Shown here piece by piece: positions 3,572-28,411 of a stretch of DNA of 64,000 nucleotides; position 1 is the stretch's first letter; each line of letters starts with the position of its first letter. The stretch comes from Methanomicrobiales archaeon HGW-Methanomicrobiales-3 (GTDB lineage Archaea; Halobacteriota; Methanomicrobia; Methanomicrobiales; Methanospirillaceae): the NCBI GenBank assembly GCA_002839605.1, contig PGYK01000004.1, positions 124,001 through 188,000 on the forward strand, in the 5' to 3' direction. Below the pieces are notes generated by a model. It worked only from the letters and a program-made list of their open reading frames with translations, made no database searches and had not been told where the DNA came from. Made by a program: the position numbers and the translations under genes.

Positions 3572-3586
3572 AAGTCACTTTTTTAC

Positions 3587-6121: not shown

Positions 6122-6173
6122 TGAATTTTTGAGAGGCTAAATCTGATCGAACGTGTCCCGCAGAGGTTCTCCT

Positions 6174-9388: not shown

Positions 9389-9452
9389 ACGAGGATATCG
9401 CTCATCAGAACCTTTAATAGTTTTTACGGCGTTTTCATTATGCACTTTTTGT

Positions 9453-9564: not shown

Positions 9565-10161
9565 TTCCTTTTGGCATATCGTTTTAAAAAATCGATCCAT
9601 CAGTTCCGGAACACCCATTTTTCCCGGTTCTGGTTTTTGTCCGAGGGTATATTACCATTTTAACTACCAACTCGTTAGAGAATTTACGAGAGAAAATACG
9701 GTCAGAACATTGTCCTAAAATTTAGATCAAAAAAGTGTTCTTGATGACGGACGTGAAATGCTGACGCTCCAGGGGCTTCGCCCCGCCGCTATGGCGCCCC
9801 GGTTGCGATAACGTTGTATTACCAAGATCATCCATCATGGTAATACAGAAGAATCGCATGCCCCTATATTTCCTGTACGGGATATTCCAACAAAATTTTT
9901 TTCGCAGAACAGAAATTAAGGCCGCCGCGGGGCGCCCTTCGGGGCGGCGGCAAGCATCTTAATGGGGGTATGGGGGCATCAGCCCCCATAATCACTTTTA
10001 AGGTTTTCAACAGATCACCTTTTCAGGCCCTGCTGAATTCCTCAAAAGATCCAGAACGCGGAAAGCATTCAACAACGATGGCGGGTATCGTTATCGCCTT
10101 TTCCGTGATAATTCCTGACGACAGTTATTACAGTCCGTATTTCGTGGGAATAATCCAATCA
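9565..10161. other. Long intergenic region between tRNA-Met and mmp10
   Basis: No credible gene is seen here. The region holds a GC-rich repeat at 9912-9993 and another short GC-rich inverted segment near 9768-9800 (aggggcttcgcccc). The remainder is AT-rich. Confidence 0.5.
9912..9993 (+). repeat. Copy 1 of the dispersed GC-rich palindromic repeat
   Basis: Consists of a GC-rich hairpin with 8-bp arms GCCGCCGC/GCGGCGGC (about 9921-9951) followed by a second hairpin TGGGGGC-ATCA-GCCCCCA (about 9970-9987). Both parts recur at 40.9, 41.3 and 45.2 kb and elsewhere in the window. Confidence 0.85.
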
Positions 10162-11391
10162 TTATTCTTTTCCAAACCGGTTGATGATCCAGATCAGGTT
10201 GGCAAATCCATCCATCTCCAGTTCAAGAACCTGCCCGCGGGTCATCCCCATGCTGGTCTCGGCATCGGCCGTAAGCATCTCCGGCCCCCGGATAATTGTC
10301 CGCTCCCTGCCATCGCGTGAGAGGATTTCCTGCGCCTCCCGCTCATGGATAAAAGCCCGGCCCGGGAGGATAACGGTGTCATCAAGGTTCGCAAGATCAA
10401 CACCATTGAGGTCATCGGCGGTGATGAGGCAGGCAATCTCCTTGCTGACCGGGATTACAGGCACTGTCGACCCGCAGGCTGAAAGGATAGCATCGATGAA
10501 CGGTGTGGCGATGCTCCCGCTGATAACGCTTGCCTTCCGGGTTATCCGGGGGAGTTTTGCAAGCAGATCCGGCTCGGACCGGATCGCAAACGGTGACCCG
10601 ATCTCCGGGTCCCAGAGCGGGGTTCCGGATATCTTCATGGTGAACTTTTTCTGAAGATCAGTGATCATGTCCCGGAACGATTCAACGCTCTGGACGCGCT
10701 GATTTGCCATGACCGGACCATTACCGAGGATGAGACCCTGGTCAGCGGTATTGGCAAACCGCATGAGGATAAGCCCTTTTGCTCCCTTGTCCTGGAGCCA
10801 CTGGCAGGTCTCTTCAAGAACCTTTCCATCATTCACTCCCGGGAGGATGACTGCAGCGGCATAGACGTCAATCGCCCCGCAGAGTTTTTCAAGGATCGCA
10901 AGCGATGCTTCCGGGCTCGGATCATGCATGTACTTTTTCCGGAGTGCCGGGTCGGATGCAAAGACCGTGAAGGAGATCTCCGAAAGGCCGTTATCGATGA
11001 GAAGATCCGCGATGGCGGGATCATCCCAGCCTTTCCCGCTGGTATACCCGATATGGAGGGGCGCGTCCATGCTACCGAGGAGCTCGATGAGTTCAGTGAA
11101 CCGGGGGTAACAGCTGGGATCACCGCCACCACTTATAGTAACCCGTGATATGTCCCCCTGCCGCGTCTGGAGATTTGCAAGAGTCTCGTCTGCGATGGTT
11201 TTGAGATCCTTAAAACCCGGATATTCTTCCTTGACCCCGCGGGTGCAGTAATCGCAGCCTTTCTTGAAGGGGAGGCAATAGCGGCAGCCCAATGGCTGAA
11301 CACCCCGGACCTTTTTGAAATAGCAGTATTCGCAAAAACCCCTGCAATTGGTACCGGGGCTTCCTCCGATATCAACAACGAGCTGCGTCAT
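10162..11391 (-). CDS. mmp10: Methanogenesis marker 10, radical SAM McrA-arginine C-methyltransferase
   Basis: This 409-residue protein matches Mmp10, which methylates the carbon of a conserved arginine in the alpha subunit of methyl-CoM reductase. The radical SAM cluster motif C-x3-C-x2-C is present as CRGFCEYC near residue 17. A second cysteine group, CRYCLPFKKGCDYC, follows closely, as expected for this family, and GGGDPSCYP is the SAM-binding GGE-like turn. The gene stands alone, away from any mcr operon in this window. It is one of the best indicators that the organism is a methanogen. Confidence 0.93.
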   Translation of the reverse strand: MTQLVVDIGGSPGTNCRGFCEYCYFKKVRGVQPLGCRYCLPFKKGCDYCTRGVKEEYPGFKDLKTIADETLANLQTRQGDISRVTISGGGDPSCYPRFTELIELLGSMDAPLHIGYTSGKGWDDPAIADLLIDNGLSEISFTVFASDPALRKKYMHDPSPEASLAILEKLCGAIDVYAAAVILPGVNDGKVLEETCQWLQDKGAKGLILMRFANTADQGLILGNGPVMANQRVQSVESFRDMITDLQKKFTMKISGTPLWDPEIGSPFAIRSEPDLLAKLPRITRKASVISGSIATPFIDAILSACGSTVPVIPVSKEIACLITADDLNGVDLANLDDTVILPGRAFIHEREAQEILSRDGRERTIIRGPEMLTADAETSMGMTRGQVLELEMDGFANLIWIINRFGKE

Positions 11392-13693: not shown

Positions 13694-14372
13694 ATGCCCT
13701 ATTGCCAGATGAAAGGATTTACCCTAGCGTTATCGAAGGTACTCCCGAGGTTACTGGCTGCGGACTATTCGACATTGTTTCGGAGAATTTAAAGAATACC
13801 GTTAGTACTTCCAGATATTGATGACCAAACGGATGATCTTGTTGTAGCTGTAGACAGTACGGGGCACCAGGGGACTAACCGGGGGGAATGGATGAGAGAG
13901 AATTTGTGGGTTCAACAGGGATGGATCAAAGCTCACATTATCGTCGAGGTGAATAGTAAAAAACTCCTTGGTATAGAGATCACCAACGAGCAAGCCAGCG
14001 ATGGTCAGGTTTTTCCGGCACTTCTTGATCAGGCCCAGGGGGCGTCCGGGGATAAAACCATCACCCGGGTCCTTGCTGACGGGGCGTATGATAACAAAGA
14101 TTTTTTCAACCGTCTTGAGAAAGACCACATCAATTCCGGCATCAAGATCCGTGAGAACGCATCTAGTAAATCGGGCGGCTCCCCATACCGCGCCGAATGT
14201 TCCCGTAAGAAACAAAAGGCGGGTTACCGAGCATGGGCTCACGAGAATGGTTATGGGAAACGATGGGCCGTCTAGGGAGTATGCTCTTCAGTGAAACGCA
14301 TATTCGAGGAAAATGTCAGGGCAAGTTCACCTGAAGGCATGACGCGGGAAGTTCAAATGAAATTCTTGTTCT
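13694..14372 (+). pseudogene. IS5-family transposase, broken by stops and by a second IS
   Basis: The frame begins MPYCQMKGFTLALSKVLPRL and contains the DDE-type start VVAVDSTG and later RVLADGAYDNKDFF. It has in-frame stops at 13790-13792 (TAA) and 14273-14275 (TAG). The sequence still reads as transposase beyond the second stop (SSVKRIFEENVRASSPEGMT), until it is cut at 14372 by the insertion of another element. The tail resumes at 15510 (after one copy of the target duplication) and stays in frame for some codons towards rfbF. It is therefore non-functional. Confidence 0.82.
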
Positions 14373-15509
14373 TAGGACTTACGCACTTGGTTACGACCGA
14401 AATATCTAAGAGACAGTAACGCCAATCCAAAGGTAAAACAAACCCGTAATGGAGAACGGGCGAGCGTGAACCCTCCGAAATGTACAAGCAGCAATTTTGT
14501 CAACTTTCTGATATCTACATATCTTGCATGCTCGTGCACGGAAGCATCCCGGTGTTTGCCCGACGAATTAGGATCAATAGCCCATGATTCCGTCAAGCGG
14601 TTGTTAGAGAGACAGCCTCACCACACGGGGGCGTTGTATGACGAAGCGAAACGGTTGATCCAGGCTGACGAAGGCGTACTCGTAATCGATGATAGTACAC
14701 TCGACAAACCCTATTCACACCAGATCGAACTGGTTACCCGACATTGGAGTGGGAAGCACCACCGTGTTGTTCAAGGCATCAACCAGATCTCAACAATCTG
14801 GACAGATGGTTCTGCGATAGTTCCGGTAGATTTCCGGATCAATTGCCCGGACAAAGACAGTATGAACAAAAATGACCATTTCCGGGATATGCTCCGAGTA
14901 GCGGATGAACGAAAGTTTCAGCCAAGTTGTGTCATCTTCGATTCATGGTATTTGAGTATCGACAATCTGAAATTGATTCGTTCACTGAAGTGGCATTGGT
15001 GTACCCGACTCAAATCCAACCGGTTGGTTGATCCGGATCAATCACACAACCGCTCGGTTTCAGATATTGAAATCCTTCCTGAAGGAAGAGTTGTGCACCT
15101 GCGACAATATGGTTTCATCAAGGTGTTCAGGATTGTTCACTCCAACAAGGAACCTGAATACTGGGCTACCGATACTCTGGATGCATCGGAATCCGACAGA
15201 AAAATGTTCAAGGATCTTGGATGGAGTATCGAAGAGTATCACCGGGGCATTAAGCAGTGTTGTGGCATCGAGAGATGCCAGGGCCGCAAAGAGGGTGTTC
15301 AACGTGGACACATTATCCACTCTTTGCTGGCATTTCTTCGCCTTGAATCCCATCGATTGAATACGGGTTCAAGTTGGTATGAATCCAAACGCTTGATCCA
15401 TCGATATGCTTCTTCTCTCTTTATTGCTTCACCGGCGTTCTAATTTGCTTTTTGTATAAACTGTAACGGATGTTTCTCTATTCAGACTTCTTTAACTGCG
15501 TAAGTCCTA
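14373..15509 (+). mobile_element. Insertion sequence (1137 bp) with 13-bp inverted repeats and 5-bp target duplication
   Basis: The ends are perfect inverted repeats, TAGGACTTACGCA (14373-14385) and TGCGTAAGTCCTA (15497-15509). Both sides are flanked by the direct repeat GTTCT (14368-14372 and 15510-15514), the target duplication. The element contains one long transposase gene and sits inside the older IS5-like transposase gene. Intact ends and duplication indicate a fairly recent insertion. Confidence 0.93.
14466..15443 (+). CDS. DDE transposase of the inserted IS (IS4/IS701-like)
   Basis: An uninterrupted 325-residue transposase. The first catalytic Asp lies in VLVIDDSTLDKPYSHQ, the second probably in PSCVIFDSWYLS, and the final Glu in WSIEEYHRGIKQCCGIE, a Y-R-E-like IS4-type signature. 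GTG at 14466 is the apparent start. The assignment to IS4/IS701-like families rests on these motifs and was not checked against a database. The gene lacks visible defects, so the element may be active. Confidence 0.82.
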   Translation: MNPPKCTSSNFVNFLISTYLACSCTEASRCLPDELGSIAHDSVKRLLERQPHHTGALYDEAKRLIQADEGVLVIDDSTLDKPYSHQIELVTRHWSGKHHRVVQGINQISTIWTDGSAIVPVDFRINCPDKDSMNKNDHFRDMLRVADERKFQPSCVIFDSWYLSIDNLKLIRSLKWHWCTRLKSNRLVDPDQSHNRSVSDIEILPEGRVVHLRQYGFIKVFRIVHSNKEPEYWATDTLDASESDRKMFKDLGWSIEEYHRGIKQCCGIERCQGRKEGVQRGHIIHSLLAFLRLESHRLNTGSSWYESKRLIHRYASSLFIASPAF

Positions 15510-15657
15510 GTTCTATCAGGAAATTCTCAATTATTGCTCTGTAGAAACGAGCATGAACCTCCCAAAAAAATGTCCGAGAAAGGTACTGATCCGCTCAAAT
15601 CCAAAACGGAACGGGTTTTTTATTTTAGTATGCCCAACATACCATAAGGCAAAGATT

Positions 15658-16452
15658 ATGGTAAAACCAGTCCAGATAATTATTCTTTGTGGGGGGCTTG
15701 GAACCCGATTACGCGAAGAGACAGAATATCGCCCCAAACCCATGGTCCCGATTGGAGGTAAACCAATTCTCTGGCATATCATGAAAATTTATGCCAAGTA
15801 CGGGCATACAGATTTTATTTTGCCGCTCGGGTACAAGGGGGATATGATCAAGGAATATTTTTATCATTACCACCTGATGAGTCAGGACGTCTGTATCCGG
15901 CTTGGGGATCATCATTCGGTATCATTTCTGCCATGCGATTCACATGAAACCGAAGACTGGTCCATCACGCTTGCCGATACTGGTGAAAATACATTAAAAG
16001 GGGGACGCTTAAAGCGTGTTGAAAAATATCTCACAGGTGACGAAGTCATGGTCACCTATGGAGACGGTGTTGCAGATATTGATATCAATAAACTTCTCGC
16101 ATTCCACCGGTCGCACGGAAAGATGGCAACAGTGACTGGTGTATCCCCGGCATCCCAGTTTGGCGAATTGCATATCAATGGAAATCGTGTGGAACACTTC
16201 AGGGAAAAGCCATCGGATTCCGATCATTATGTAAGCGGAGGATTTTATGTTTTCAACCGCTCATTCTTCAACTGCCTGACTGCTGACGGGTCGTGTGATC
16301 TGGAAGCAGGGCCCCTTGAAAAACTCGCTGCAACCGGCGAACTGATGGTATACAAACATCCCGGAAGGTGGGCGTGCATGGATACCATTCGGGACATGGA
16401 ATACCTGAACCGGTTATGGGACACGAAAGACGCATTCTGGAAAACCTGGTGA
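15658..16452 (+). CDS. rfbF: Glucose-1-phosphate cytidylyltransferase
   Basis: Sugar nucleotidyltransferase of 264 residues that makes CDP-glucose, the first step to CDP-linked deoxysugars. The nucleotide-binding start VQIIILCGGLGTRLREET is followed by RPKPMVPIGGKPILWHI, the cytidylyltransferase signature, and by the metal-binding TYGDGVAD. The frame is open further upstream through the IS5 relic; the ATG at 15658, just before the conserved domain, is taken as start. rfbG follows nine bases after its stop, fitting one pathway. Confidence 0.94.
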   Translation: MVKPVQIIILCGGLGTRLREETEYRPKPMVPIGGKPILWHIMKIYAKYGHTDFILPLGYKGDMIKEYFYHYHLMSQDVCIRLGDHHSVSFLPCDSHETEDWSITLADTGENTLKGGRLKRVEKYLTGDEVMVTYGDGVADIDINKLLAFHRSHGKMATVTGVSPASQFGELHINGNRVEHFREKPSDSDHYVSGGFYVFNRSFFNCLTADGSCDLEAGPLEKLAATGELMVYKHPGRWACMDTIRDMEYLNRLWDTKDAFWKTW

Positions 16453-16461
16453 GTTCGGTTC

Positions 16462-17535
16462 ATGGATCTATCCAACGTCTATGAAGGCAAATCAGTTCTC
16501 CTTACCGGAGATACCGGATTTAAAGGATCCTGGCTTGCACTCTGGCTGCACAAGATTGGAGCCTCGGTTACCGGCATAGGACTCGAACCAAAAACATCCC
16601 GGGATAATTATTGTGCCTGTGGACTTGGATCAGTGATAACTCATTATTCCTGTGATATCCGGCACTATGATCAAATCCAGGATTTTTTTTCTGCAACAAA
16701 TCCTGATATGGTATTTCATCTTGCTGCCCAGCCATTAGTATCCGAATCCTATTCTTCTCCCCGTGAAACATTTGAAATCAATACTCAGGGTACGGCCAAT
16801 ATCCTGGAATGCATTCGACACACACCTTCAATTCAGGTCGGGGTAATGATAACCAGCGATAAGTGTTATGAGAACCGGGAATGGATCTATGGGTACCGGG
16901 AAACCGATCCTCTCGGGGGGCATGATCCTTACAGTGCTTCAAAGGGGGCGGCAGAGATTGTCATATCCTCATATATACGGTCATTTTTTTCCAAAGATGG
17001 GACACCGGTAATTTCTTCAGCACGGGCGGGAAATGTGATCGGTGGGGGGGACTGGTCAAAAGACCGCATTATTCCGGATTTTATGCGATCTCTTGAAGAA
17101 AGAAAACCCATTGACATCAGAAATCCACGAGCCGTTCGACCCTGGCAACATGTTCTTGAACCTCTTTACGGGTACCTTCAGTTAGGCGCAACGATGCTTA
17201 CCAAAGGGCATTCATTCAGCGGGGCCTGGAATTTCGGACCATTGTACCGGAACAACCTGACTGTTGAGGATCTGATGAGGAAATTTATCGAACAGGGCAA
17301 ACGCGGGGAGATGAAAATTCCGGAGCAGCATGAAAGTTTCCATGAAGCCGGGTTCCTGAGCCTTGATATATCCAAAGCCATCCATCAGCTTGGCTGGCAT
17401 CCGGTCCTGGATATCGATACGATGATCCGGTTTACTCTTGAAGAATACGGAGTGGATAACTTATCCACAGAAGCGGTTTTCAACCAGCGGTGTGCCCATA
17501 TTGATGAATATATGAATCTTCAAAAAAAGGTGTGA
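16462..17535 (+). CDS. rfbG: CDP-glucose 4,6-dehydratase
   Basis: Short-chain dehydrogenase of 357 residues that converts CDP-glucose to CDP-4-keto-6-deoxyglucose. The NAD site is TGDTGFKGSW near the N-terminus. ITSDKCYENRE and YGYRETDPLGGHDPYSASK contain the substrate-binding and active-site Tyr-x3-Lys residues typical of RfbG. Directly downstream of rfbF and upstream of a C-methyltransferase, so the 4-keto product is probably methylated rather than passed to an RfbH-type dehydrase, for which no gene is seen. Confidence 0.93.
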   Translation: MDLSNVYEGKSVLLTGDTGFKGSWLALWLHKIGASVTGIGLEPKTSRDNYCACGLGSVITHYSCDIRHYDQIQDFFSATNPDMVFHLAAQPLVSESYSSPRETFEINTQGTANILECIRHTPSIQVGVMITSDKCYENREWIYGYRETDPLGGHDPYSASKGAAEIVISSYIRSFFSKDGTPVISSARAGNVIGGGDWSKDRIIPDFMRSLEERKPIDIRNPRAVRPWQHVLEPLYGYLQLGATMLTKGHSFSGAWNFGPLYRNNLTVEDLMRKFIEQGKRGEMKIPEQHESFHEAGFLSLDISKAIHQLGWHPVLDIDTMIRFTLEEYGVDNLSTEAVFNQRCAHIDEYMNLQKKV

Positions 17536-17538
17536 ACC

Positions 17539-18774
17539 ATGGAATTCTGTCGATCCTGCGGGTCACCGCTGCAAAAGCCGTTTTTGGATCTGGGAAACTC
17601 TCCCCTGTCAAACGGGTATCTCTCAGAAAAGAACATCCACGTGATGGAACCCTATTTTCCCCTTGAGATCTATTTCTGCCCGCATTGTTCGCTCGTTCAG
17701 CTGGATGTATTTGAGGCACCGGAACAGATCTTTTCATCGGACTACGCGTATTTTTCATCCTACTCTTCGAGCTGGTTAGCGCATTGCAAGTCATACGTAG
17801 AAATGATGGTGAAGAGATTCGGATATACCAAGGATTCGTTTGTGATGGAGATTGCAAGCAACGACGGCTATCTCCTTCAGTATTTCAAAGAGTATCACAT
17901 CCCTGTAAAAGGTGTGGAGCCAGCAACAAATACGGCAGAGATTGCCCTAGGAAAAGGAATCCCGACGGATATTACATTTTTTAATACCGATTATGCAAAT
18001 GAGATGGTTTCCCGGAATTGTCTGGCAGATCTTATCATCGGTAACAATGTCCTTGCCCATAATCCAAACCTGAATGATTTTGCTGAAGGGTTACGTATTG
18101 CCCTGAAACCCCATGGGGTTATCACGATGGAATTTCCCCATATTCTCCAACTTATCAAGAATAATCAGTTTGACACGATCTACCATGAGCATTATTCCTA
18201 TCTCTCTCTGCATGCGGTACGGTATCTCTTCAATGCGCATCACCTCGAAATTTTTGATGTTGATGAACTTCCGACGCATGGCGGATCCCTGCGGATTTGT
18301 GCAAAACACACGGGAGATCCGGCAAATGAAATATCTCCACGCGTCGCGGAACTGCTGGACAAAGAGAAACGAGCTGGCTTACTCGATCCGGCCACCTATG
18401 AATACTTCCGATTAAATGTTGAGGCAACGAAGAGATCTTTACTCCAATGCCTTATCTCTGTAAAGAAAGAAGGGAAATCCATTGTGGGCTATGGAGCCCC
18501 TGCAAAGGGAAACACACTTCTGAATTATTGTGGGATCAGAACTGATTTCCTTGATTATACGGTTGATGCAAATCCCCATAAACAGAATTTATTCCTGCCG
18601 GGTACGCATATCCCGATCAGACACCCTGAGCAGATACGAATCGATAAACCGGATTACATTCTCATCCTCCCATGGAATATCAAGGATGAGATTATGGAAC
18701 AACTCTCATTTGTCCATGAATGGGGAGGAAAATTTATTATCCCCATTCCGGAAGTACGGGTGATCGATGCATGA
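17539..18774 (+). CDS. Sugar C-methyltransferase (NDP-hexose 3-C-methyltransferase-like)
   Basis: A 411-residue protein with the three-part plan of sugar C-methyltransferases. It has an N-terminal zinc-binding region (CRSCG near residue 4 and CPHCSLVQL near residue 50), a SAM-binding fold (VMEIASNDGYLL), and a C-terminal domain (VGYGAPAKGNTLLNY). Family members methylate the carbon next to the 4-keto group of NDP-6-deoxysugars. Its position between rfbG and an epimerase suggests a CDP-linked branched sugar. The stop overlaps the next gene (ATGA). Confidence 0.9.
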   Translation: MEFCRSCGSPLQKPFLDLGNSPLSNGYLSEKNIHVMEPYFPLEIYFCPHCSLVQLDVFEAPEQIFSSDYAYFSSYSSSWLAHCKSYVEMMVKRFGYTKDSFVMEIASNDGYLLQYFKEYHIPVKGVEPATNTAEIALGKGIPTDITFFNTDYANEMVSRNCLADLIIGNNVLAHNPNLNDFAEGLRIALKPHGVITMEFPHILQLIKNNQFDTIYHEHYSYLSLHAVRYLFNAHHLEIFDVDELPTHGGSLRICAKHTGDPANEISPRVAELLDKEKRAGLLDPATYEYFRLNVEATKRSLLQCLISVKKEGKSIVGYGAPAKGNTLLNYCGIRTDFLDYTVDANPHKQNLFLPGTHIPIRHPEQIRIDKPDYILILPWNIKDEIMEQLSFVHEWGGKFIIPIPEVRVIDA

Positions 18775-19304
18775 TCTTTACCGAGACAAAGATCAAGGGG
18801 GTTTTTGTCATCGAGCCGGAATTACTCCCCGATGAGCGTGGATTTTTTGCACGGTCGTTTTGTAAGGATGAATTCCGCAATCACGGACTTGAAACGGATA
18901 TTGTCCAATGTAATATTTCTTACAACAAAAAAAAAGGAACACTCCGGGGGATGCATTACCAAGCTCCACCGTTTGAAGAGGCAAAGATTGTTTCTTGTAT
19001 TAAAGGATCAATCTATGATGTGGTTCTTGATCTGCGGAGAGATTCAGCAACCTGTTGCCAATGGGTTGCAACAGAATTGAGCGAGACGAATTTCAAAATG
19101 GTGTATATTCCAAAGGGTTGTGCTCATGGGTTCCAGACGATTGAGGATGATACAATGGTGTATTATCAGATGACCGAGTTTTACCACCCGGAATGTACGA
19201 GTGGCGTGAGGTGGGATGATCCTGCATTTATGATAACTTGGCCAATGCCGGATGATGCAACCATCTCCAACAAAGATACACAGTATGAGACTTTCAGGAA
19301 GTAA
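18771..19304 (+). CDS. rfbC: dTDP-4-dehydrorhamnose 3,5-epimerase-like protein
   Basis: Cupin-fold epimerase of 177 residues with LLPDERGFFARSFCKDEF at the start, NISYNKKKGTLRGMHYQ in the middle (the conserved RGMH contains the catalytic His region) and YIPKGCAHGFQT. The neighbours make a CDP-sugar, so it may act on CDP-4-keto-6-deoxy-3-C-methylhexose rather than the dTDP substrate; the nucleotide preference cannot be read from the sequence. ATG at 18771 overlaps the previous stop. An rmlD-like gene lies 6 kb downstream, but no rmlA or rmlB partner is present. Confidence 0.88.
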   Translation: MIFTETKIKGVFVIEPELLPDERGFFARSFCKDEFRNHGLETDIVQCNISYNKKKGTLRGMHYQAPPFEEAKIVSCIKGSIYDVVLDLRRDSATCCQWVATELSETNFKMVYIPKGCAHGFQTIEDDTMVYYQMTEFYHPECTSGVRWDDPAFMITWPMPDDATISNKDTQYETFRK

Positions 19305-19307
19305 ATC

Positions 19308-20336
19308 ATGAAAAAAAAGCCGAAGGTAATGATTGCCGGTATTGCCGGGGCGTCATTGGGGACGGAACTGTTTAAATGTCTGGCATTAGCCAAACGTTAT
19401 GAGATTTTTGGATGCGATATTTCACCATATGCTTACGGTCATTACCAGAAAGGATTCAAAAAAACATTCGTTGTCAGCGAAAAAAACTATATTGACTCGG
19501 TTTTATCGGTTTGTAAGAAAAATGCCATTGATTTTCTGATTCCCGGGGGAGAACAACCCATGGTCCTGCTGGGGAAACACGAACATATATTGAAGGAAAA
19601 CGGCATTCAATTCGTGGGAAATTCAGCTGATATCGTCAGCCAATACTCAAATAAAAAGATCACATTCCTCCAGTTAAATAACAGTGGAATTGAAATCCCG
19701 GAAACACTTTTTATTAATAAACTCACCAAATCTGTAAAAATTCCCTTCCCCTGTATTATTAAGCCATCAACGAATTCCGGCGGGAGCAATTTTGTTTTTC
19801 TTGCTTCTAATCTTGATGAGGCAAAATTATACCTGCGGTATTTGAAAATAAATAACAGGGAAGCCGTGATTCAGGAATATATTCCACTTGATGAAGGAGA
19901 ATTCACGGTCGGTGTTTTATCTTTGCCTGATCAGACAATCGCATACTCAATCGCATTAAAACGAGTCTTCAATTCAAAGTTATCCATAGCGCAACAAAAT
20001 AACATCGGATTGATTTCAAGCGGATACACGCAAGGATATATTGACAAATTTCCAAAGATTTGTTCTACAGCAGAAAAAATTGCAAAAAAAATCGGAAGCT
20101 GTGGTCCTTTGAATATCCAGGGGAGGGTCAGAAACGGAATTTTTTTGCCGTTTGAGATAAACCCGAGGTTTTCTGCCTCCACGTACTTACGAGCCCTTGC
20201 CGGGGTAAATGAGATAGACCTATTTTTACAATATTTACTTACAGAAAAACTAGAGAGAATAGGGCCGATAAAACCTGGTTATTATTTAAGAAGTTTTGAT
20301 GAAGTGGTCATTGGAAAAAATGAGGTGAAACGATGA
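19308..20336 (+). CDS. ATP-grasp enzyme of the CarB/PylC-like group, substrate unknown
   Basis: The 342-residue protein has an N-terminal Rossmann-like part (MIAGIAGASLGTELFKCL) and a typical ATP-grasp domain, with PCIIKPSTNSGGSNFVF as the ATP-binding loop and GPLNIQGRVRNGIFLPFEINPRFS as the metal-binding core. Such enzymes ligate a carboxylate to an amine or similar nucleophile using ATP. The following gene starts four bases before its stop, so the two are tightly coupled. Base composition is AT-richer than the flanking chromosome. Possible roles are amide decoration of surface sugars or modification of a secreted metabolite. Confidence 0.85.
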   Translation: MKKKPKVMIAGIAGASLGTELFKCLALAKRYEIFGCDISPYAYGHYQKGFKKTFVVSEKNYIDSVLSVCKKNAIDFLIPGGEQPMVLLGKHEHILKENGIQFVGNSADIVSQYSNKKITFLQLNNSGIEIPETLFINKLTKSVKIPFPCIIKPSTNSGGSNFVFLASNLDEAKLYLRYLKINNREAVIQEYIPLDEGEFTVGVLSLPDQTIAYSIALKRVFNSKLSIAQQNNIGLISSGYTQGYIDKFPKICSTAEKIAKKIGSCGPLNIQGRVRNGIFLPFEINPRFSASTYLRALAGVNEIDLFLQYLLTEKLERIGPIKPGYYLRSFDEVVIGKNEVKR

Positions 20337-21577
20337 TCCGATGGATAACTGATTCGTTAGGCACGGCTGCATATAATGATGCAGTCCACGACGAGAAAAC
20401 TTTCCAAATCGTTGATGTACGGGATCTTGTCGATAAACAAGGTAATAGTACTGACGCAATCCGGAAAAAAATAGATGAGACACTGGATATTTTAAAACAA
20501 GGAAAAAAAGCAGTAATTTGTTGTGATTATGGAATTTCACGTAGTAATGCTATAGCTGCGGGCGTCTTATCACAACTTGAAGGGATCCCTTTTTCAGATG
20601 CTGTCCAGCGAATCATTTCCACAACCGGTGAAAAAAAGATAAAGGTTCAGATGTTATCGGCAGTTAGGAAAGTGATCGAAACTGAGGATATTCTGCATCC
20701 AACCAATCGGTCACAAGATACAATTATGATTGTTGGAAATGGAATATTTGGAAATTTTTTAAAAAAACTATTGCCTAGGCATCTTAAAGATACTTCAATA
20801 ATATCGCGATCCGAGAATAAGATGGGCCTATTACAGGGAACAGGGACTCTTGACACCCAAGTAAAAGAAAATGATGTTGGCTATATCATTCATCTCGCCG
20901 AACCGAAAATGTCCAGCGATAATGAGGCGATAGGAACCAGCATCACACTGCTAAAAAATTGTATCGATGTATGTTGCGATAATGAAATAACCTTGATTTA
21001 TCCCTCTAGCAGTGAAATTTATTCAGGTTACCAGTCTGCCAATCTACGCGCTTCGGAATGCTTGCAACCGAATCCAAAAAGTATCTATGGACAGACAAAA
21101 CATTTGTGCGAAAACCTCATTGCGTATTCTGAGCGTACTGACAGACTGCGATCTATAATCTTGCGGTATAGTACCATCTATGGAAACCGCCGCCCCCAAT
21201 TTCTATATAATTTTATTGACCTAGCCAATAAGGATAAGGATATTACTACACATATGTATCGGAATGGCTTGCCAATAGTGGATTTACTCCATATCAACGA
21301 TGCCGTTTTTGCATGTGCTGCAGCATTGAAAGCAAATCGCACCGGGATTTTTAACATTGGATCCGGAATCGGTCTTACAACATTCGAAATTGCTCAAAAG
21401 ATCATTGAACGATCTGGTTCTAACAGTAAAATTGGTCATATCGATATTGATGAGTATGTATCAAATGTTGTTCTTGATAGTTCGTATGCAAAAAAAATAC
21501 TGCATTGGGTACCAACTGTGGATTTTGATGACGAACTGAAATTGATAATAACCAGATCTATTGAGGAGAATTCATGA
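20333..21577 (+). CDS. Fusion of a dual-specificity-phosphatase-like domain and an NAD-dependent epimerase/dehydratase
   Basis: A 414-residue protein with two domains. Residues about 1-120 look like a Cys-based phosphatase, with the CX5R loop as CDYGISRS after KAVICC. From about 130 onwards there is a short-chain epimerase/dehydratase domain, with NAD loop VGNGIFGNFL, SSSEIYSG and the Tyr-x3-Lys YGQTKHL. The phosphatase loop retains Cys and Arg, so activity is possible. It overlaps the ATP-grasp gene by four bases and the next methyltransferase by four. The arrangement suggests dephosphorylation and sugar conversion in one chain. Confidence 0.83.
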   Translation: MIRWITDSLGTAAYNDAVHDEKTFQIVDVRDLVDKQGNSTDAIRKKIDETLDILKQGKKAVICCDYGISRSNAIAAGVLSQLEGIPFSDAVQRIISTTGEKKIKVQMLSAVRKVIETEDILHPTNRSQDTIMIVGNGIFGNFLKKLLPRHLKDTSIISRSENKMGLLQGTGTLDTQVKENDVGYIIHLAEPKMSSDNEAIGTSITLLKNCIDVCCDNEITLIYPSSSEIYSGYQSANLRASECLQPNPKSIYGQTKHLCENLIAYSERTDRLRSIILRYSTIYGNRRPQFLYNFIDLANKDKDITTHMYRNGLPIVDLLHINDAVFACAAALKANRTGIFNIGSGIGLTTFEIAQKIIERSGSNSKIGHIDIDEYVSNVVLDSSYAKKILHWVPTVDFDDELKLIITRSIEENS

Positions 21578-22365
21578 CATCAAACAGTGAGATTGATCGG
21601 CAGGAAAGTATTCCTTGGCATCGTACAGGATTTTACTCAGAATATAATACGATATTAGGCAAGTACAAAATTGAGTCTTGTCTGAAATATATGCACAAAT
21701 CAAGTGTTCTGGATCTTGCGTGTGGAGATGGTTTTTTAACATCCCTGTATTGCCAAAAATTTAAACGGGTCGTCGGTGTTGATGCATCCAAAAAACATCT
21801 GGATGAAGCCCGGAAACGATTGCCGCATGTCCAGTTTATTCATAGCCTGATAGAGGATATCACTTTTGAGGAACAGTTTGATAATGTCTTGCTCCTAGAT
21901 ATTCTTGAACATGTTAAAGATCCCCACCAAGTCCTCCAGGTGGCATCCCGATATCTTAAACCAGAAGGTACGTTGATTATTCATGTTCCGAATTCAAATG
22001 CGATTAACCGACGGATCGCTGTTTTAATGGGAACTTTGGAAACATGTGATGAACTCAGCCCATTTGACCTCAATGTTGCCGGTCATCGCAGATCTTATGT
22101 ACGATCGTCTCTGATTTCTGACATCGAGAAAGCCGGTCTTACAGTAATCGATTCCGGTGGGATCTTCTTCAAGATGCTTTCAACCCCCCAGATGGATTGG
22201 TTTTTAAAAAATGGATTGTGGGAAGAAGGGGGATTCGGGTGGGGCCGGGTTGGTGCAGAAAAAAAGGATTGGAAAGCAGAGTTTTGTCGTGCATGCTATG
22301 AAATCGGGAAAGAATATCCTGATGATTGTAACATTGTTTATGCAATAGTCAAAAAAAATGAATGA
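21574..22365 (+). CDS. SAM-dependent methyltransferase (class I)
   Basis: The 263-residue protein has motif I VLDLACGDGFLTS, then VVGVDASKKHLDEAR, and LLLDILEHVKDPHQ, the usual class-I SAM-binding features. The N-terminal segment contains RTGFYSEYNTI, seen in sugar or small-molecule methyltransferases of such clusters. The start overlaps the fusion gene (ATGA). The acceptor is unknown; O-methylation of a sugar or polyol is the simplest guess from context. Confidence 0.87.
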   Translation: MTSNSEIDRQESIPWHRTGFYSEYNTILGKYKIESCLKYMHKSSVLDLACGDGFLTSLYCQKFKRVVGVDASKKHLDEARKRLPHVQFIHSLIEDITFEEQFDNVLLLDILEHVKDPHQVLQVASRYLKPEGTLIIHVPNSNAINRRIAVLMGTLETCDELSPFDLNVAGHRRSYVRSSLISDIEKAGLTVIDSGGIFFKMLSTPQMDWFLKNGLWEEGGFGWGRVGAEKKDWKAEFCRACYEIGKEYPDDCNIVYAIVKKNE

Positions 22366-22410
22366 ATTTCTAAGTAAGCCTTCCAAATCATTTTGATCAA
22401 TGGAGAATCT

Positions 22411-23136
22411 ATGTTGCCGAAGATTGCGAACGATCGAGCATTGATTAATGCTATGCAGAATGATGAAGAGATCAAAAATTTACGAAAAAAATTGCTACAG
22501 GCGATTGTAAAATACAAATACACCTACAATTTCACATGGCATGGACGCCCGATTATTCAACTTCCCGAAGACATTGTTGCAACCCAGGAAATAATTCTGA
22601 ATGCCAAGCCGGATATAATTATCGAGACCGGTATTGCACATGGAGGAGGCCTTGTTTTCTATGCGTCACTTCTTGAAATTCTGGGCAAAGGTTCGGTTAT
22701 TGGCGTAGACATCGAAATAAGGAAACATAACCGTGAAGCGCTGGAGAACCATCCCCTGTTCAAACGGATCAGCCTTATTGAAGGATCGTCAACGGATGCA
22801 AAAATATTTAGTCAGGTCTCAGATTTATGCAAACCGGCAAAAAATGTGATGGTGATCTTAGATTCGGATCATACCCATGCACATGTCCTGCGGGAACTTG
22901 AGTTATATTCAACACTTGTCCGGAAAAATGGTTATCTCATTGTATTTGATACCGGTATCGAAGATGTCGATGGTCCGGCATATCCGAACCGTCGCTGGGG
23001 CAAAGGGAACAACCCCAAAACCGCGGTCTGGGAGTTCTTAAAAAAGAATGACCGGTTTGTCATCGATAAAGATATCGAGAGTAAACTCCTGATTACTGTA
23101 GCACCTGATGGCTACTTAAAATGTGTCAAGGATTGA
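22411..23136 (+). CDS. Cephalosporin hydroxylase (CmcI)-family SAM enzyme
   Basis: A 241-residue protein of the CmcI group, which in surface-glycan clusters usually acts as a sugar O-methyltransferase rather than a hydroxylase. Recognisable parts are IQLPEDIVATQEIILNAKPD, IIETGIAHGGGLVFYAS (SAM loop) and VMVILDSDHTHAHVLREL, where the acidic and histidine residues bind a metal. ATG at 22411 with GGAGAA seven bases upstream is preferred over a TTG at 22393. It follows another methyltransferase by 45 bases. Confidence 0.85.
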   Translation: MLPKIANDRALINAMQNDEEIKNLRKKLLQAIVKYKYTYNFTWHGRPIIQLPEDIVATQEIILNAKPDIIIETGIAHGGGLVFYASLLEILGKGSVIGVDIEIRKHNREALENHPLFKRISLIEGSSTDAKIFSQVSDLCKPAKNVMVILDSDHTHAHVLRELELYSTLVRKNGYLIVFDTGIEDVDGPAYPNRRWGKGNNPKTAVWEFLKKNDRFVIDKDIESKLLITVAPDGYLKCVKD

Positions 23137-23141
23137 CGAAA

Positions 23142-24269
23142 ATGGAACACATCCCTGTCGCGGGCCCATGGATCACCCAGAAAGAGATTGATTACGTTGC
23201 AGATGCTGCAGCGCACGCATGGTACGAAAACGCCAATATGTATCATGAACGGTTCGAAAAGGCGTTTTCGAAGTATATTGGTACAAAATACGCGATGGCC
23301 CTGCCGTCCTGCACGTCTGCGATCCACCTGTCCCTTCTTTCATTGGGAATTGGAAAAGGGGATGTGGTGATTGTTCCGGATCTTACCTGGATTGCGACTG
23401 CGGCACCAATTTCTTATGTCGGCGCTGATCCGGTCTTCGCAGACTGCGATGAAAAGACTTGGTGTATTTCTCCTGATGCATTTCAGGACTGCATAACCTC
23501 CCGGACAAAAGCGGTCATCCCCGTTGATTTGTATGGGAATATGCCGGAGATGGATGCGATCCGGGATATTGCACACGATCATGGGATTGCAATCATAGAA
23601 GATGCCGCGGAAGCAATCGGATCAGAATACCATGGGAAACGTTCTGGTAGTTTCGGGGATACTGGCGTCTTCAGTTTCCACGGGTCAAAAACGATGACAA
23701 CTGGTGAAGGCGGGATGCTTGTCACTGACAGGAAAGATCTGTATGAGCGTTGTCTTGCCCTCCGCGATCATGGGAGAGCACCAGGCGAAAAAATGTTCTG
23801 GAATGCGGAAGTCGGATATAAATACAAGATGAGCAGTATGCAGGCTGCCCTGGGCCTCGCCCAGCTGGAACGCATTGAGGAACTTGTCAATAAGAAACGG
23901 CAGATTTTCTCCTGGTACCGGGAGAATCTGCAATCAATTGAGGGGATAACATTAAATTGTGAACCTTCCGGAACAACGAACTCCTACTGGATGGCGACAG
24001 CGATCTTTGATCCAAAATTCGGACGCTTAAAGGAGGATATTATAAGAACGATGAAAGGAAATGGAATTGATCTGCGTCCGTTCTTTTATCCGCTCAGTTC
24101 ACAACCCGCGTATGCTACGAATCCCTATGCTCGCGAAGCGCCACAGCGAAATATTACCTCGTATCGGATTTCACCATATGGGGTGAATCTGCCATGTGGG
24201 TTGAATATGACTGAAAAATTAGTCTGGAGCGTTTGCAATAAGCTAATGCAGGTGTTGGGTTTTGAATAA
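23142..24269 (+). CDS. DegT/DnrJ/EryC1/StrS-family sugar aminotransferase
   Basis: PLP-dependent aminotransferase of 375 residues that probably converts an NDP-ketosugar to an aminosugar. The N-terminus (IPVAGPWITQKEIDYV) is family-typical; the PLP lysine is in FSFHGSKTMTTGEGG and the cofactor-binding Asp in IIEDAAEAIGSEYHG. The ATG at 23142 is chosen over an earlier one inside the preceding gene. The substrate could be the product of the upstream epimerase domain. Downstream it overlaps a glycosyltransferase by eight bases. Confidence 0.93.
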   Translation: MEHIPVAGPWITQKEIDYVADAAAHAWYENANMYHERFEKAFSKYIGTKYAMALPSCTSAIHLSLLSLGIGKGDVVIVPDLTWIATAAPISYVGADPVFADCDEKTWCISPDAFQDCITSRTKAVIPVDLYGNMPEMDAIRDIAHDHGIAIIEDAAEAIGSEYHGKRSGSFGDTGVFSFHGSKTMTTGEGGMLVTDRKDLYERCLALRDHGRAPGEKMFWNAEVGYKYKMSSMQAALGLAQLERIEELVNKKRQIFSWYRENLQSIEGITLNCEPSGTTNSYWMATAIFDPKFGRLKEDIIRTMKGNGIDLRPFFYPLSSQPAYATNPYAREAPQRNITSYRISPYGVNLPCGLNMTEKLVWSVCNKLMQVLGFE

Positions 24270-25188
24270 CATAAACGTGGAATCTGTTACTAACGTTAAC
24301 GTACGTAAAGGACCATTAGTCAGCGTGGGAATCCCAACATATAATCGTCCTGAAGGATTACGCAGGACAATTGAGGGGATTCGTCACCAGACCCACACAA
24401 ATCTTGAAATTATCGTCTCAGATAATTGTACACCTGGAGACGAAATTCAAAAAATTATGACAGAATATCTTAAAAAGGACTCGAGGATCCAGTTTTACCG
24501 CCAAGTGGAAAACCGAGGGCCGTTGTTCAATTTTGAGTTTGTTCTTGCAAAAGCAACCGGTGAATTCTTTGTATGGGCTGCAGATGATGATGAATGGAAA
24601 GAACAATATATTGAGAAATGTCTTGATGAATTTTTTACCCATCCGAATCTCGTTTTGTGCTACAGTGAAGCATTAAAAAAAGGCCATTCTGAACATGAGG
24701 ATCAGATATTATGGTCAGATCTATCAACTGTCGGGCTAAAAAGGATTTGTGGGATAAAAAAAATACTTATAAACCAATACAGAAATATTGAATTTTATGG
24801 TCTTTTAAAAACTAGAATAGTGCGACTCTATCAATTTGAAAATTCCTTTGGAGAAGACCAGATTTTTATTTTGTTTCTTGCCTTGCAAGGGGAAATTGGA
24901 AAAACAATTCCTGGATTATTCATTAATGGTCCTGGATTTGCGGGAACCTCTTCAGAAAAAACCGTTAATTCACTCGGAATTCATAAAATAAACATCTATT
25001 TTGGTTATATTTTTTTGATAATAAATACAATTCGGATGCTCCTGAAGTACAATTTTAGCTTGAACTCATGGGAGAAATGTTTAATTATTGGATTTATTTT
25101 CCGAAAGTCTCTAACTAAGAGATACATCTTAGCTGTAACTCAAGGAATGGTCTTACTCATTCGCGATACGATTAATAGAATTTGCTGA
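24262..25188 (+). CDS. Family 2 glycosyltransferase
   Basis: A 308-residue glycosyltransferase with GT-A features: VSVGIPTYNRPEGLRRTIEG, LEIIVSDNCTPGDE and the metal-binding WAADDDEW. The C-terminal 90 residues contain hydrophobic stretches that may anchor it to the membrane. The start is uncertain; a TTG at 24262 is the only fitting codon upstream of the conserved domain, with the next start-like codon too far inside. The C-terminal half is very AT-rich. Confidence 0.85.
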   Translation: MNNINVESVTNVNVRKGPLVSVGIPTYNRPEGLRRTIEGIRHQTHTNLEIIVSDNCTPGDEIQKIMTEYLKKDSRIQFYRQVENRGPLFNFEFVLAKATGEFFVWAADDDEWKEQYIEKCLDEFFTHPNLVLCYSEALKKGHSEHEDQILWSDLSTVGLKRICGIKKILINQYRNIEFYGLLKTRIVRLYQFENSFGEDQIFILFLALQGEIGKTIPGLFINGPGFAGTSSEKTVNSLGIHKINIYFGYIFLIINTIRMLLKYNFSLNSWEKCLIIGFIFRKSLTKRYILAVTQGMVLLIRDTINRIC

Positions 25189-25360
25189 CAATGTTCAAGA
25201 TATTTTATTTAAATAGGTAAGAAATAGAAGTAATCAAGACAAATCAGCAATGGGCCGGTTTTACTAGCATTATAATTATCATAAATTTTGTTTAGGAAAA
25301 GCATTGGTATGAATTCCGCACATTATCAGGATTAATCCTCTTACAGGGAGAGAAGTATTG

Positions 25361-26254
25361 ATGAAAATCCTCATTCTCGGCGCCACAGGGATGCTCGGCC
25401 ATAAACTGATGCAGGTACTCTCACGGCAACATACGGTTACCGGAACCGTACGCAGAAATAAATCAGAAATTTCTGGCCATCCAATATTTTCAACCATGAA
25501 TATCGTGGGAAATGTCAATGTCGAAAAACCTGAATCCATCTACGCATTGATAAAAACCATGCATCCTGATGTCATCATCAATTGCATCGGCATCGTAAAA
25601 CAGCTTCCAGCCGCCCGTGATCCCCTTCAGAGTATTACTATCAACTCCCTGTTCCCTCATCAGCTGGCAGTAATATGCCAGAAAAACGGTACACGGCTTA
25701 TCCACATGAGCACGGACTGCGTCTTTTCCGGAAAGAAAGGCAATTACCAGGAGACAGATCAATCCGATGCCGAAGATCTCTATGGAAAAACAAAATACCT
25801 TGGTGAAGTCGATTATCCGGGTTGCCTGACGATTCGGACATCGATAATCGGACGAGAACTGGATACAACCCATGGCTTGATCGAATGGTTTTTCAGCCAG
25901 GAAGGAAAAACCGTGCCCGGTTATACCCATGCAATTTTCTCCGGTCTGACCACACTTGCCTTATCAGAAATGATCGGACACATCATTGATCACCATCCGG
26001 CACTACGAGGCGTTTACCAGATTGCATCAGCCCCGATAAGCAAATACGATCTCCTCTGTCTTGTGAAAAAGACGTATGGAATGAATATCTCGGTTATCCC
26101 GGATAATGCCGTAGTGAATGACCGGAGCCTGAGCCCGGAGAAGTTCCGGACTGAAACAAACATTAAGATTCCTTCATGGGAATATATGATAAACCAAATG
26201 CACAGCGATCTCACGCCATATACTGAGGTCAGGGGAAACCATGTTCACGAATAA
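25361..26254 (+). CDS. RmlD-like NDP-4-keto-sugar reductase
   Basis: Short-chain reductase of 297 residues, with GATGMLGHKLMQVLS at the N-terminus, HMSTDCVFSGKKGNY and the YGKTKYLGE Tyr-x3-Lys motif. It resembles RmlD and the related reductases WbvR/CapF. At 297 residues it lacks the C-terminal cupin domain present in CapF. With the next two genes it forms a predicted pathway to a UDP-2-acetamido-2,6-dideoxy-L-hexose. ATG at 25361 follows GGGAGAG; the 14-base overlap with the next gene supports one operon. Confidence 0.85.
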   Translation: MKILILGATGMLGHKLMQVLSRQHTVTGTVRRNKSEISGHPIFSTMNIVGNVNVEKPESIYALIKTMHPDVIINCIGIVKQLPAARDPLQSITINSLFPHQLAVICQKNGTRLIHMSTDCVFSGKKGNYQETDQSDAEDLYGKTKYLGEVDYPGCLTIRTSIIGRELDTTHGLIEWFFSQEGKTVPGYTHAIFSGLTTLALSEMIGHIIDHHPALRGVYQIASAPISKYDLLCLVKKTYGMNISVIPDNAVVNDRSLSPEKFRTETNIKIPSWEYMINQMHSDLTPYTEVRGNHVHE

Positions 26255-27314
26255 AACTATTCTTGTTACCGGGGGAACTGGATCCCTTGGGAAAGTATTG
26301 ATCCGCCGCCTACTCTCGGGAGAGATCGGTACACCGAAGAAGATCATTGTCTTCTCCCGGGATGAAGCAAAACAGCATGAGATGCGGATCTCGTACCTCA
26401 ACAGCAATGCCCCCACCGATGAAGTTATCTATAACAATTTCCGCAGGTTGCTTGAATTCCGCATCGGGGATGTCCGTGATTTCCATAGTATCAGTGCTGC
26501 CCTTCATGGTGTGGATGTTGTTTTCAATACTGCGGCCCTCAAGCAGGTTCCCTCCTGTGAATATTTCCCGTTCGAAGCGGTCCGGACAAATATCGAAGGC
26601 CCGGAAAATATCATCAGGGCCATCCGGGAGCTTGGTCTCCCTGTTGAAACAGTTGTTGGAATATCCACTGACAAAGCCTGCAAGCCGGTGAATGTCATGG
26701 GGATGACCAAAGCGATTCAGGAGCGAATCTTCATCACCGCAAATCTTGATTGTCCCCACACCCGGTTCATCTGTGTCCGTTATGGCAATGTCCTTGCATC
26801 CCGGGGTTCTGTCATTCCCTTGTTCCACGAACAGATACGTTCGGGCGGGCCGGTCACAATTACGACAAGAGATATGACTCGCTTCCTGCTCAGTCTCGAT
26901 CAGGCTGTTGACACAATTTTTGCAGCAGTAAAGGGTGCAAAACGCGGGGAAACGTATATTCCGAGAGTGCCGTCCGCAAAAGTTACAGATATTGCCGAAT
27001 TACTGATCGGAAAACGATCTATTAAGACAATAATTACCGGAATACGGCCCGGAGAAAAAGTACACGAAATCCTGATTTCCGAAGAAGAGGCTCACCGCAC
27101 TATCGGCCGCGGAGAGTATTATGTTATCCAGTCAATATTGCCGGAAATTTCAGATGTATCCACGGATAAAAAGGAAAAAGCGAAGCCGGTACTGGAGAGA
27201 GAGTTCTCATCATCCGACAATGTGATGTCAAAACCCATGCTCTTAAACACCTTAAAAAAATTTGATCTGACTTTATCGGGACATGGAGATCTGGAAGGAG
27301 AACTCCTGCGATGA
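26241..27314 (+). CDS. UDP-N-acetylglucosamine 4,6-dehydratase (CapE/WbjB-like)
   Basis: Nucleotide-sugar dehydratase of 357 residues. The NAD loop is VTGGTGSLGKVLIRRLL, the substrate-binding segment is FSRDEAKQHEMR, and the active-site segment is GISTDKACKPVNVMGMTKAI. In this group Met replaces the usual Tyr in MxxxK (MGMTK), a feature of inverting UDP-GlcNAc 4,6-dehydratases. It should start the pathway finished by the RmlD-like reductase upstream and the WecB-like epimerase downstream. Confidence 0.88.
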   Translation: MFTNKTILVTGGTGSLGKVLIRRLLSGEIGTPKKIIVFSRDEAKQHEMRISYLNSNAPTDEVIYNNFRRLLEFRIGDVRDFHSISAALHGVDVVFNTAALKQVPSCEYFPFEAVRTNIEGPENIIRAIRELGLPVETVVGISTDKACKPVNVMGMTKAIQERIFITANLDCPHTRFICVRYGNVLASRGSVIPLFHEQIRSGGPVTITTRDMTRFLLSLDQAVDTIFAAVKGAKRGETYIPRVPSAKVTDIAELLIGKRSIKTIITGIRPGEKVHEILISEEEAHRTIGRGEYYVIQSILPEISDVSTDKKEKAKPVLEREFSSSDNVMSKPMLLNTLKKFDLTLSGHGDLEGELLR

Positions 27315-28411
27315 AAGTGATGACTATTCTCGGAACACGTCCAGAGATTATCCGGCTCAGTCGCATCATAGAAAAACTCGACAACCATTGTACCCATATT
27401 CTTGTGCATACCGGCCAGAATTTTGATAAAAACCTCAATGATATCTTCTTTTCAGATCTTAAGATACGGAGCCCGGATTATTTTCTCAATGTCAAAGGGA
27501 ATTCCGCAGGTGAACAGATTGGCCGAATCCTTGCTGCTACTGAAGACGTGATGCAAAAGGAGAAGCCGGACCGCATTCTGATCCTTGGCGATACTAACAG
27601 CAGCCTGTCAGCAATTATCGCAAAACGGATGGGAATTCCCGTCTATCACATGGAAGCAGGAAACCGGTGTTATGATGATCGTGTTCCCGAAGAAGTGAAC
27701 CGGAGGATCATCGATCATTCCAGCGACATCCTGTTACCCTATACGGAGAACAGCAGGGCTAACCTGATCCACGAAGGTATTTCTGGGAATCGGATCCTTG
27801 TTACCGGAAATCCGATACGGGAAGTAATCGAGCACTACGATAAACAGATCAGGAACTCGGATATTTTAAACCGGTTGAAAATCCACAAAGGGAAATATTT
27901 CCTTGTCACCCTGCACAGGGCAGAGAATGTTGACATAGAAATTCGTTTAAAAACCTTTTTTAGGGCGTTTTCATCACTCAGCTCCCAATACGGAGTACCG
28001 GTAATCTGTAGTATCCATCCAAGAACCCGCGACAAACTGGACTCCTTTGAAGTCACACCGGATCCAGAAAAGGTCATGGTCTATGAACCGTTTGGTTTTT
28101 TTGACTTTATCCGGCTGGAACGGGATGCATTGTGTGTATTGAGCGATAGTGGAACGGTTCAGGAAGAGTGCTGTATATTCCATGTTCCGAATGTGACAAT
28201 CCGTGATGTCACCGAACGACCGGAGACACTTGAATGCGGCAGCAATATTCTGTCGGGCGCCGATAACAACTCCATTCTTAATTGTGTCCATATTGCCTTA
28301 TCAAAAGCCCCTTCATGGAACCCTCCGGACGAATATCTTCGTAATGATGTCAGTGAGACGGTTATCCGCATTGTGATCGGCTATTCTATGAAATCATCAT
28401 ATCCGGTATAA
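27311..28411 (+). CDS. UDP-N-acetylglucosamine 2-epimerase family protein (WecB/WbjD-like)
   Basis: A 366-residue epimerase with the N-terminal TILGTRPEIIRLSRII, GDTNSSLSAIIAKRMGIPVYHMEAG and RRIIDHSSD motifs, and the C-terminal LSDSGTVQEE of the UDP-binding site. In FucNAc/QuiNAc pathways such enzymes invert C2 at the last step. The start overlaps the dehydratase by four bases. Some substitutions, for example CCIFHVPNVTIRD near the substrate site, are within family variation. Confidence 0.9.
   Translation: MKVMTILGTRPEIIRLSRIIEKLDNHCTHILVHTGQNFDKNLNDIFFSDLKIRSPDYFLNVKGNSAGEQIGRILAATEDVMQKEKPDRILILGDTNSSLSAIIAKRMGIPVYHMEAGNRCYDDRVPEEVNRRIIDHSSDILLPYTENSRANLIHEGISGNRILVTGNPIREVIEHYDKQIRNSDILNRLKIHKGKYFLVTLHRAENVDIEIRLKTFFRAFSSLSSQYGVPVICSIHPRTRDKLDSFEVTPDPEKVMVYEPFGFFDFIRLERDALCVLSDSGTVQEECCIFHVPNVTIRDVTERPETLECGSNILSGADNNSILNCVHIALSKAPSWNPPDEYLRNDVSETVIRIVIGYSMKSSYPV

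Follow-up and report, generated by a model that had tools for sequence, protein, structure and literature searches.

A possible amide-ligation module in an archaeal CDP-sugar cassette: an ATP-grasp gene coupled to a phosphatase-SDR fusion gene

What might an ATP-grasp ligase, a Cys-based phosphatase and a sugar-modifying enzyme of the SDR type accomplish together in one archaeal sugar cassette? The question arises from the 64,000-nucleotide stretch of DNA of Methanomicrobiales archaeon HGW-Methanomicrobiales-3 analysed here (the window), in which an ATP-grasp gene overlaps a gene predicted to encode both other domains (Table 1). The initial annotation had read the second product as a Cys-phosphatase-like domain (CDYGISRS loop) joined to an epimerase/dehydratase domain. 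P-loop, PF01370 match and predicted fold all agree with such a fusion. The four-base overlap with the upstream gene, also noted there, is an ATGA stop/start sequence, and the ATP-grasp identity of the upstream product is borne out by a full-length NF009402 match of 285.8 bits (curated cut-off 218). At its 3' end, the fusion gene also shares 4 bp with the methyltransferase gene starting at 21574.

Table 1. Features of the window, and phosphatases encoded near ATP-grasp relatives in other loci
Feature	Position in window, or locus	Strand	Basis
RfbF, glucose-1-phosphate cytidylyltransferase	15553-16452	+	TIGR02623, 318.9 bits (cut-off 300.25)
RfbG, CDP-glucose 4,6-dehydratase	16462-17535	+	TIGR02622, 437 bits (cut-off 278)
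NDP-hexose C-methyltransferase (Methyltransf_13/14)	17539-18774	+	PF08484, 2e-66; L012 homologue 51% identical
RmlC-like NDP-4-keto-hexose 3,5-epimerase	18720-19304	+	PF00908, 4e-66; TIGR01221 over cut-off
ATP-grasp ligase, carbamoyl-phosphate-synthase-like, PRK12767 family, 342 aa	19308-20336	+	NF009402, Pfam
ATGA stop/start overlap of ATP-grasp and fusion genes, 4 bp (translational coupling)	20333-20336	+	sequence
Phosphatase-SDR fusion gene, 414 aa	20333-21577	+	ORF, Pfam, predicted fold
DSP/PTP-like Cys-phosphatase domain, about residues 1-116 of the fusion protein	20333-20680	+	AlphaFold2, Foldseek, PDB profile matches
Asp34, candidate general acid, LVDKxGN	20432-20434	+	alignment; putative role from its place about 30 residues N-terminal to C64
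P-loop C64-D-Y-G-I-S-R70-S71	20522-20545	+	sequence; alignment with ShufPTP
Extended SDR (epimerase/dehydratase/reductase) domain	20717-21574	+	PF01370, phmmer, Foldseek
Putative nucleotide-binding glycine motif G135-NG-IF-G140	20735-20752	+	alignment
SDR catalytic Y252-GQT-K256	21086-21100	+	alignment
SAM methyltransferase	21574-22365	+	PF08241, 8e-20; L012 has a homologue next to the pair (58% identity)
Rhamnosyl O-methyltransferase/CmcI-like protein	22393-23136	+	PF04989, 7e-83
DegT-type sugar aminotransferase	23121-24269	+	PF01041, 9e-114; homologues in L011, L012
GT2 glycosyltransferase	24262-25188	+	PF00535, 1.5e-25
PHP phosphatase within two genes of ATP-grasp	L022, L037, L047		
Calcineurin-like phosphoesterase within two genes of ATP-grasp	L017, L033, L035, L040, L051		
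HAD phosphatase within two genes of ATP-grasp	L034, L039, L048, L049		

The ATP-grasp protein also scores above cut-off with Pfam PF15632, PF21360 and PF02655, and the TupA family is absent among its Pfam matches. K116, K152, Q189, E283 and N285 are invariant in 23 ATP-grasp relatives; the ATP/Mg residues E198 and R287 are kept as well. In score and key residues, the window ligase resembles the carbamoyl-phosphate-synthase-like proteins of PRK12767 (NF009402), from which it is distinguished by its additional coupling to the fusion of an SDR with a dual-specificity-type phosphatase (DSP). No PRK12767 member with an established reaction was found in this analysis. Some ATP-grasp enzymes are kinases, and the window protein could be one whose product is reversed by the DSP, as in the kinase-phosphatase pairs of inositol pyrophosphate metabolism. 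Plant and fungal DSPs hydrolysing inositol pyrophosphates are named in PMC11611267. However, ATP-grasps of the NF009402/PylC-like kind fall together with carboxylate-amine ligases and with carbamoyl-phosphate synthases, and a futile cycle makes little sense in a linear sugar biosynthetic cassette, so that a kinase is most improbable here.

The N-terminal domain of the fusion gives a weak Pfam DSPc match (E 0.0045, 17.2 bits, below the cut-off of 33.5), and its identity is therefore left open by sequence alone. In the PDB, a profile built from three such domains picks out PTP/DUSP chains, the best at E 9e-4. AlphaFold2 modelled the full-length fusion poorly (pLDDT 58), and from that model the SDR matches alone were used; refolded separately, the N-terminal domain reached pLDDT 81 and pTM 0.80. 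The top Foldseek matches of this model in the PDB are ShufPTP, Tk-PTP and DUSP10 (probability 1.00, TMq about 0.7), and PTP/DUSP-family structures make up nearly all of the best 50. Structure prediction had been proposed with the initial annotation as a check on the phosphatase reading, and the domain is indeed predicted to have the dual-specificity/PTP phosphatase fold.

This domain shares the fold and the CX5RS P-loop with small archaeal or ancestral PTP/DUSP proteins (Tk-PTP, ShufPTP, DUSP10), while differing from them in having CC for HC and D-Y after the Cys, in an identity of only 12-18%, in its score below the Pfam DSPc cut-off and in its fusion to an SDR. The P-loop context in the window protein is CCDYGISRSN, with the CX5R(S/T) motif present, and C64 aligns with ShufPTP position 93, the cysteine of a cyclic sulfenamide according to the description of PDB 9e9m. 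The P-loop diverges in having Cys where His is usual and Asp next to the catalytic Cys; this, together with the score under the Pfam cut-off, would suit a catalytically dead, phosphatase-like domain serving to bind a phosphorylated sugar or a nucleotide sugar on behalf of the SDR. Against this stand the invariance of C64, R70, S71 and the candidate acid D34 in three distant fusions, where the P-loop varies at position 68 alone (I/M), and the stronger conservation of the domain compared with the whole protein (54% versus 39% identity between the two archaeal proteins, of the window and Methanocorpusculum petauri). Other phosphatase types also replace this domain elsewhere. A dead binding domain is accordingly improbable, and the N-terminal domain, as modelled, is likely to be an active phosphatase.

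The second half of the fusion matches PF01370 over residues 137-343 (3e-20, 73.1 bits, cut-off 20.9). By phmmer it matches the UDP-GlcNAc 4-epimerase 3m2p (3e-17), which Foldseek ranks first. Y252 and K256 of the YxxxK motif are invariant in the three fusions. At the place of the nucleotide motif GxxGxxG, the two other fusions have GASGFIG and the window protein has GNGIFG.

A search of other genomes for the same gene pair, suggested at the outset, located it in M. petauri (L012) and in an acidobacterial MAG (L011). Both loci have the MIRWIT start of the fusion and the 4-bp overlap (10001-10004 in each) as in the window, with identities to the window proteins of 53-54% for the ATP-grasp and 40-41% for the fusion. 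The pair is more than a chance arrangement, since the fusion, its start and the overlap are kept in two other genomes. The agreement of the fusion across three genomes also ruled out an assembly or frameshift artefact. Both loci were found in a scan of genome contigs with the N-domain alignment as query; the full-protein query found none.

The pair is rare, occurring in 2 of 232 genomes of the order (that of the window and one other) and 1 of 396 sampled genomes of the acidobacterial MAG's phylum, and was absent from the same-genus genomes searched. This rarity and absence, along with the G+C content of the pair (38% versus 52% for the window), fit horizontal transfer. N-domain matches in other phylum members (L004-L008; E 1e-5 to 1e-3) were too weak to be counted as relatives. 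No relative of the DSP domain was found in the viral contigs and plasmids searched, where phage and plasmid matches of the full fusion protein cover essentially only its SDR half. G+C falls to 35-41% at positions 19308-22365 and 24262-25188 of the window, which also speaks for foreign DNA. Immediately upstream of the rfbF-rfbG cassette (13802-15443) are ORFs, or remnants of ORFs, that resemble those of transposases; as read from the sequence, these would fit a mobile cassette. Homologues of the window C-methyltransferase, RmlC-like, DegT, CmcI-like and ATP-grasp proteins (the last 51% identical) are encoded at 128-10978 of a viral-classed contig (L052, IMGVR_UViG_3300009788_000098), with apparent phage structural genes nearby and no phosphatase in view.

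All three pairs are located in CDP-hexose cassettes (rfbF, rfbG/SDR, rmlC-like, DegT). In the window, the genes for RfbF, RfbG, C-methyltransferase, RmlC-like epimerase, ATP-grasp, fusion, methyltransferase, CmcI-like protein, DegT and GT2 form one run. M. petauri has eight of the window cassette genes, 40-58% identical and in a different order, and its fusion gene lies tail-to-tail with the methyltransferase gene; the acidobacterial locus combines RfbF, SDR, RmlC-like and DegT with the pair. What the three loci have in common is thus a pathway to a CDP-6-deoxyhexose that includes an aminotransferase, suggesting that the acceptor is an amino sugar. RfbF, RfbG, RmlC-like, C-methyltransferase and DegT are shared with rfbF/rfbG CDP-hexose O-antigen cassettes for dideoxy and branched sugars, to which the window adds the ATP-grasp and the DSP-SDR. 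Further downstream, at 25358-28411, three overlapping genes appear from their translations to encode an RmlD-like reductase, a Polysacc_synt_2-like dehydratase and a WecB-like epimerase, and might form a pathway of the UDP-L-FucNAc type.

The pair may plausibly, if still tentatively, be regarded as an amide-forming decoration module within the CDP-sugar pathway. RfbF and RfbG would produce CDP-4-keto-6-deoxyhexose, from which the RmlC-like epimerase, C-methyltransferase and DegT could form a branched amino-deoxyhexose, judging by their family functions. The ATP-grasp enzyme would convert a carboxylate into an acyl phosphate for amide formation with an amine, and either the acid or the amine would presumably bear a protective or recognition phosphate. 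The DSP-like domain would strip this phosphate from the ligation product, and the fused SDR domain might reduce or epimerise the sugar. Since phosphatase and SDR are fused, two late steps would reside in one polypeptide, translated together with the ligase. The initial annotation had envisaged an undescribed sugar-modification or glycan-peptide linkage pathway. The link to sugar modification is retained, as the neighbours point to CDP-hexose modification; glycan-peptide linkage was rejected, no gene at the locus supporting it.

It had also been held that a ligase with a phosphatase is no known surface-polysaccharide step, which was too strong. In the capsule pathway of Campylobacter jejuni, Cj1438C, an ATP-grasp domain, forms an amide between glucuronic acid and either (S)-serinol-P or ethanolamine-P, after which Cj1435 takes the phosphate off the product (PMC11800379). 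ATP-grasp amide joining of a phosphorylated block followed by a phosphatase in a surface-polysaccharide locus would be common to both systems, the window side by analogy. In C. jejuni, a TupA-like ATP-grasp is fused to a glycosyltransferase, the phosphatase is a HAD enzyme and the acceptor is glucuronic acid in the growing polymer, whereas the window has a PRK12767-type ATP-grasp and a DSP phosphatase fused to an SDR in a CDP-6-deoxyhexose cassette. The window system would be analogous at best: with another ATP-grasp family and another phosphatase fold, it falls outside the Cj1438C/Cj1435 type. In place of a Cj1435-like HAD partner the window pair has a phosphatase of the DSP fold, and HAD enzymes are found beside the relatives in L034, L039, L048 and L049. 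An ATP-grasp amino acyl ligase, a sugar epimerase and a HAD phosphatase also share one surface-sugar locus in Clostridium acetobutylicum (CA_C2186-2199, PMC4000134); unlike the window, it is of the nonulosonic-acid type and has neither a DSP nor such a fusion listed. No description of a DSP-SDR fusion of this kind was found in the literature searched.

The comparison was extended to the gene surroundings of 20 further relatives of the ATP-grasp, drawn from archaea, bacteria, plasmids and viral contigs. In 12 of these, a phosphatase of a fold unrelated to DSP is encoded within two genes of the ATP-grasp; a Pfam check of the phosphatase neighbours covered eight of the twelve. This association of the ATP-grasp relatives with phosphatases of unrelated folds is the new observation. 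Phosphatase and ATP-grasp genes overlap by 4 bp in L033, L037, L047, L048 and L049, and SDR and phosphatase genes do so in L051. Shuffling of gene positions in the 19 scorable loci gave 4.1 expected loci with a phosphatase within two genes versus 11 observed (p about 5e-5, an optimistic value, as the detection HMMs were built from the adjacent phosphatases themselves). The same HMMs detected no phosphatase away from the ATP-grasp vicinity among the 271 genes of these loci. As an independent yardstick, such genes are rare in the 2.6-Mb host genome, which holds only nine matches to these three families (5 Metallophos, 2 PHP and 2 HAD_2). Mapped onto a tree of 23 ATP-grasp proteins, whose deep branches are weakly supported, phosphatase type requires 10 changes (minimum 4), a scatter expected if phosphatases were swapped repeatedly.

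Besides the phosphatase, an SDR gene lies next to the ligase gene in L022, L039, L040, L047 and L051, and three of these loci have an unfused trio: ATP-grasp-SDR-Metallophos (L051), PHP-SDR-ATP-grasp (L022) and PHP-ATP-grasp-SDR (L047). SDRs are common in polysaccharide loci, and adjacency to the ligase is by itself weak evidence. No phosphatase is found nearby in the remaining eight (L036, L041, L042, L044, L045, L046, L050, L052), so that the phosphatase is either dispensable for the ligase family or encoded elsewhere. The ATP-grasp of L052 falls inside the DSP clade of the tree, yet without a nearby phosphatase.

The same neighbourhoods bear on two other roles for the phosphatase. It could be a regulatory protein-tyrosine or dual-specificity phosphatase, like the Wzb type of capsule loci, controlling the pathway or a kinase. 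Tyrosine phosphatases are frequent in polysaccharide loci, and fold and P-loop of the N-terminal domain match protein phosphatases. Such a role is nevertheless of low probability: the domain is part of one polypeptide with a sugar-modifying enzyme, the window neighbours examined included no tyrosine kinase, and unrelated folds, including HAD and PHP (mostly small-molecule enzymes), occupy the same place in the relatives.

Alternatively, the DSP may take its phosphate from a phosphorylated sugar or from a sugar-phosphate precursor early in the pathway, with the SDR oxidising or epimerising the product, while the ATP-grasp takes a separate, unphosphorylated amino acid; phosphatase and ligase would then serve the same pathway with no common intermediate. 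The phosphatase is after all fused to the SDR and not to the ligase, some ATP-grasp relatives have no phosphatase nearby, and there are Cys-phosphatases whose substrates are glucans or inositol phosphates. This arrangement appears rather unlikely, however, given that in seven non-fused loci (L017, L033, L034, L037, L047, L048, L049) the phosphatase gene is the immediate same-strand neighbour of the ATP-grasp gene, in most cases with an overlap, and that the CDP-hexose pathway encoded by the window neighbours requires no additional sugar phosphatase after RfbF.

If the phosphatase fold is interchangeable, the simplest reading is that the ligase uses a phosphorylated small molecule whose phosphate is later removed. 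PRK12767-type ATP-grasp proteins probably handle a phosphorylated intermediate. It is possible, though doubtful enough to be put forward with caution, that archaeal and bacterial surface-sugar loci share an undescribed amide-ligation module in which one ATP-grasp family is combined with a phosphatase whose fold can be exchanged (DSP, PHP, calcineurin-like or HAD) and, in many cases, with an SDR. The phosphate would mark the building block during ligation and then be removed, and the window would hold the most compact form, with phosphatase and SDR in one protein. If true, the DSP fold would be used for small-molecule sugar biosynthesis in archaea. Annotation of PRK12767-type proteins stops at carbamoyl-phosphate-synthase-like, and the company of four unrelated phosphatase folds offers a testable functional clue. 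The fusion is a good starting protein, its two steps being physically linked and a well-defined CDP-sugar pathway lying alongside.

Several of the loci show further features. NeuB-like proteins, read from sequence, occur in L033 and L035, and the phosphatase of these loci might instead act on the 9-phosphate of a nonulosonic acid. Next to the ATP-grasp relatives in L037 (7450-8112) and L044 (8055-8690) are genes for PIG-L deacetylase-like proteins, again read from sequence, a hint that a free sugar amine might be the ligation acceptor in some loci. On the Sinorhizobium meliloti plasmid pSymB (L047, 4375-6990), the overlapping PHP and ATP-grasp genes are followed by that of an NAD(P)-dependent oxidoreductase, and an operon for sulfate activation (cysD, nodQ, cysQ) lies upstream of the trio.
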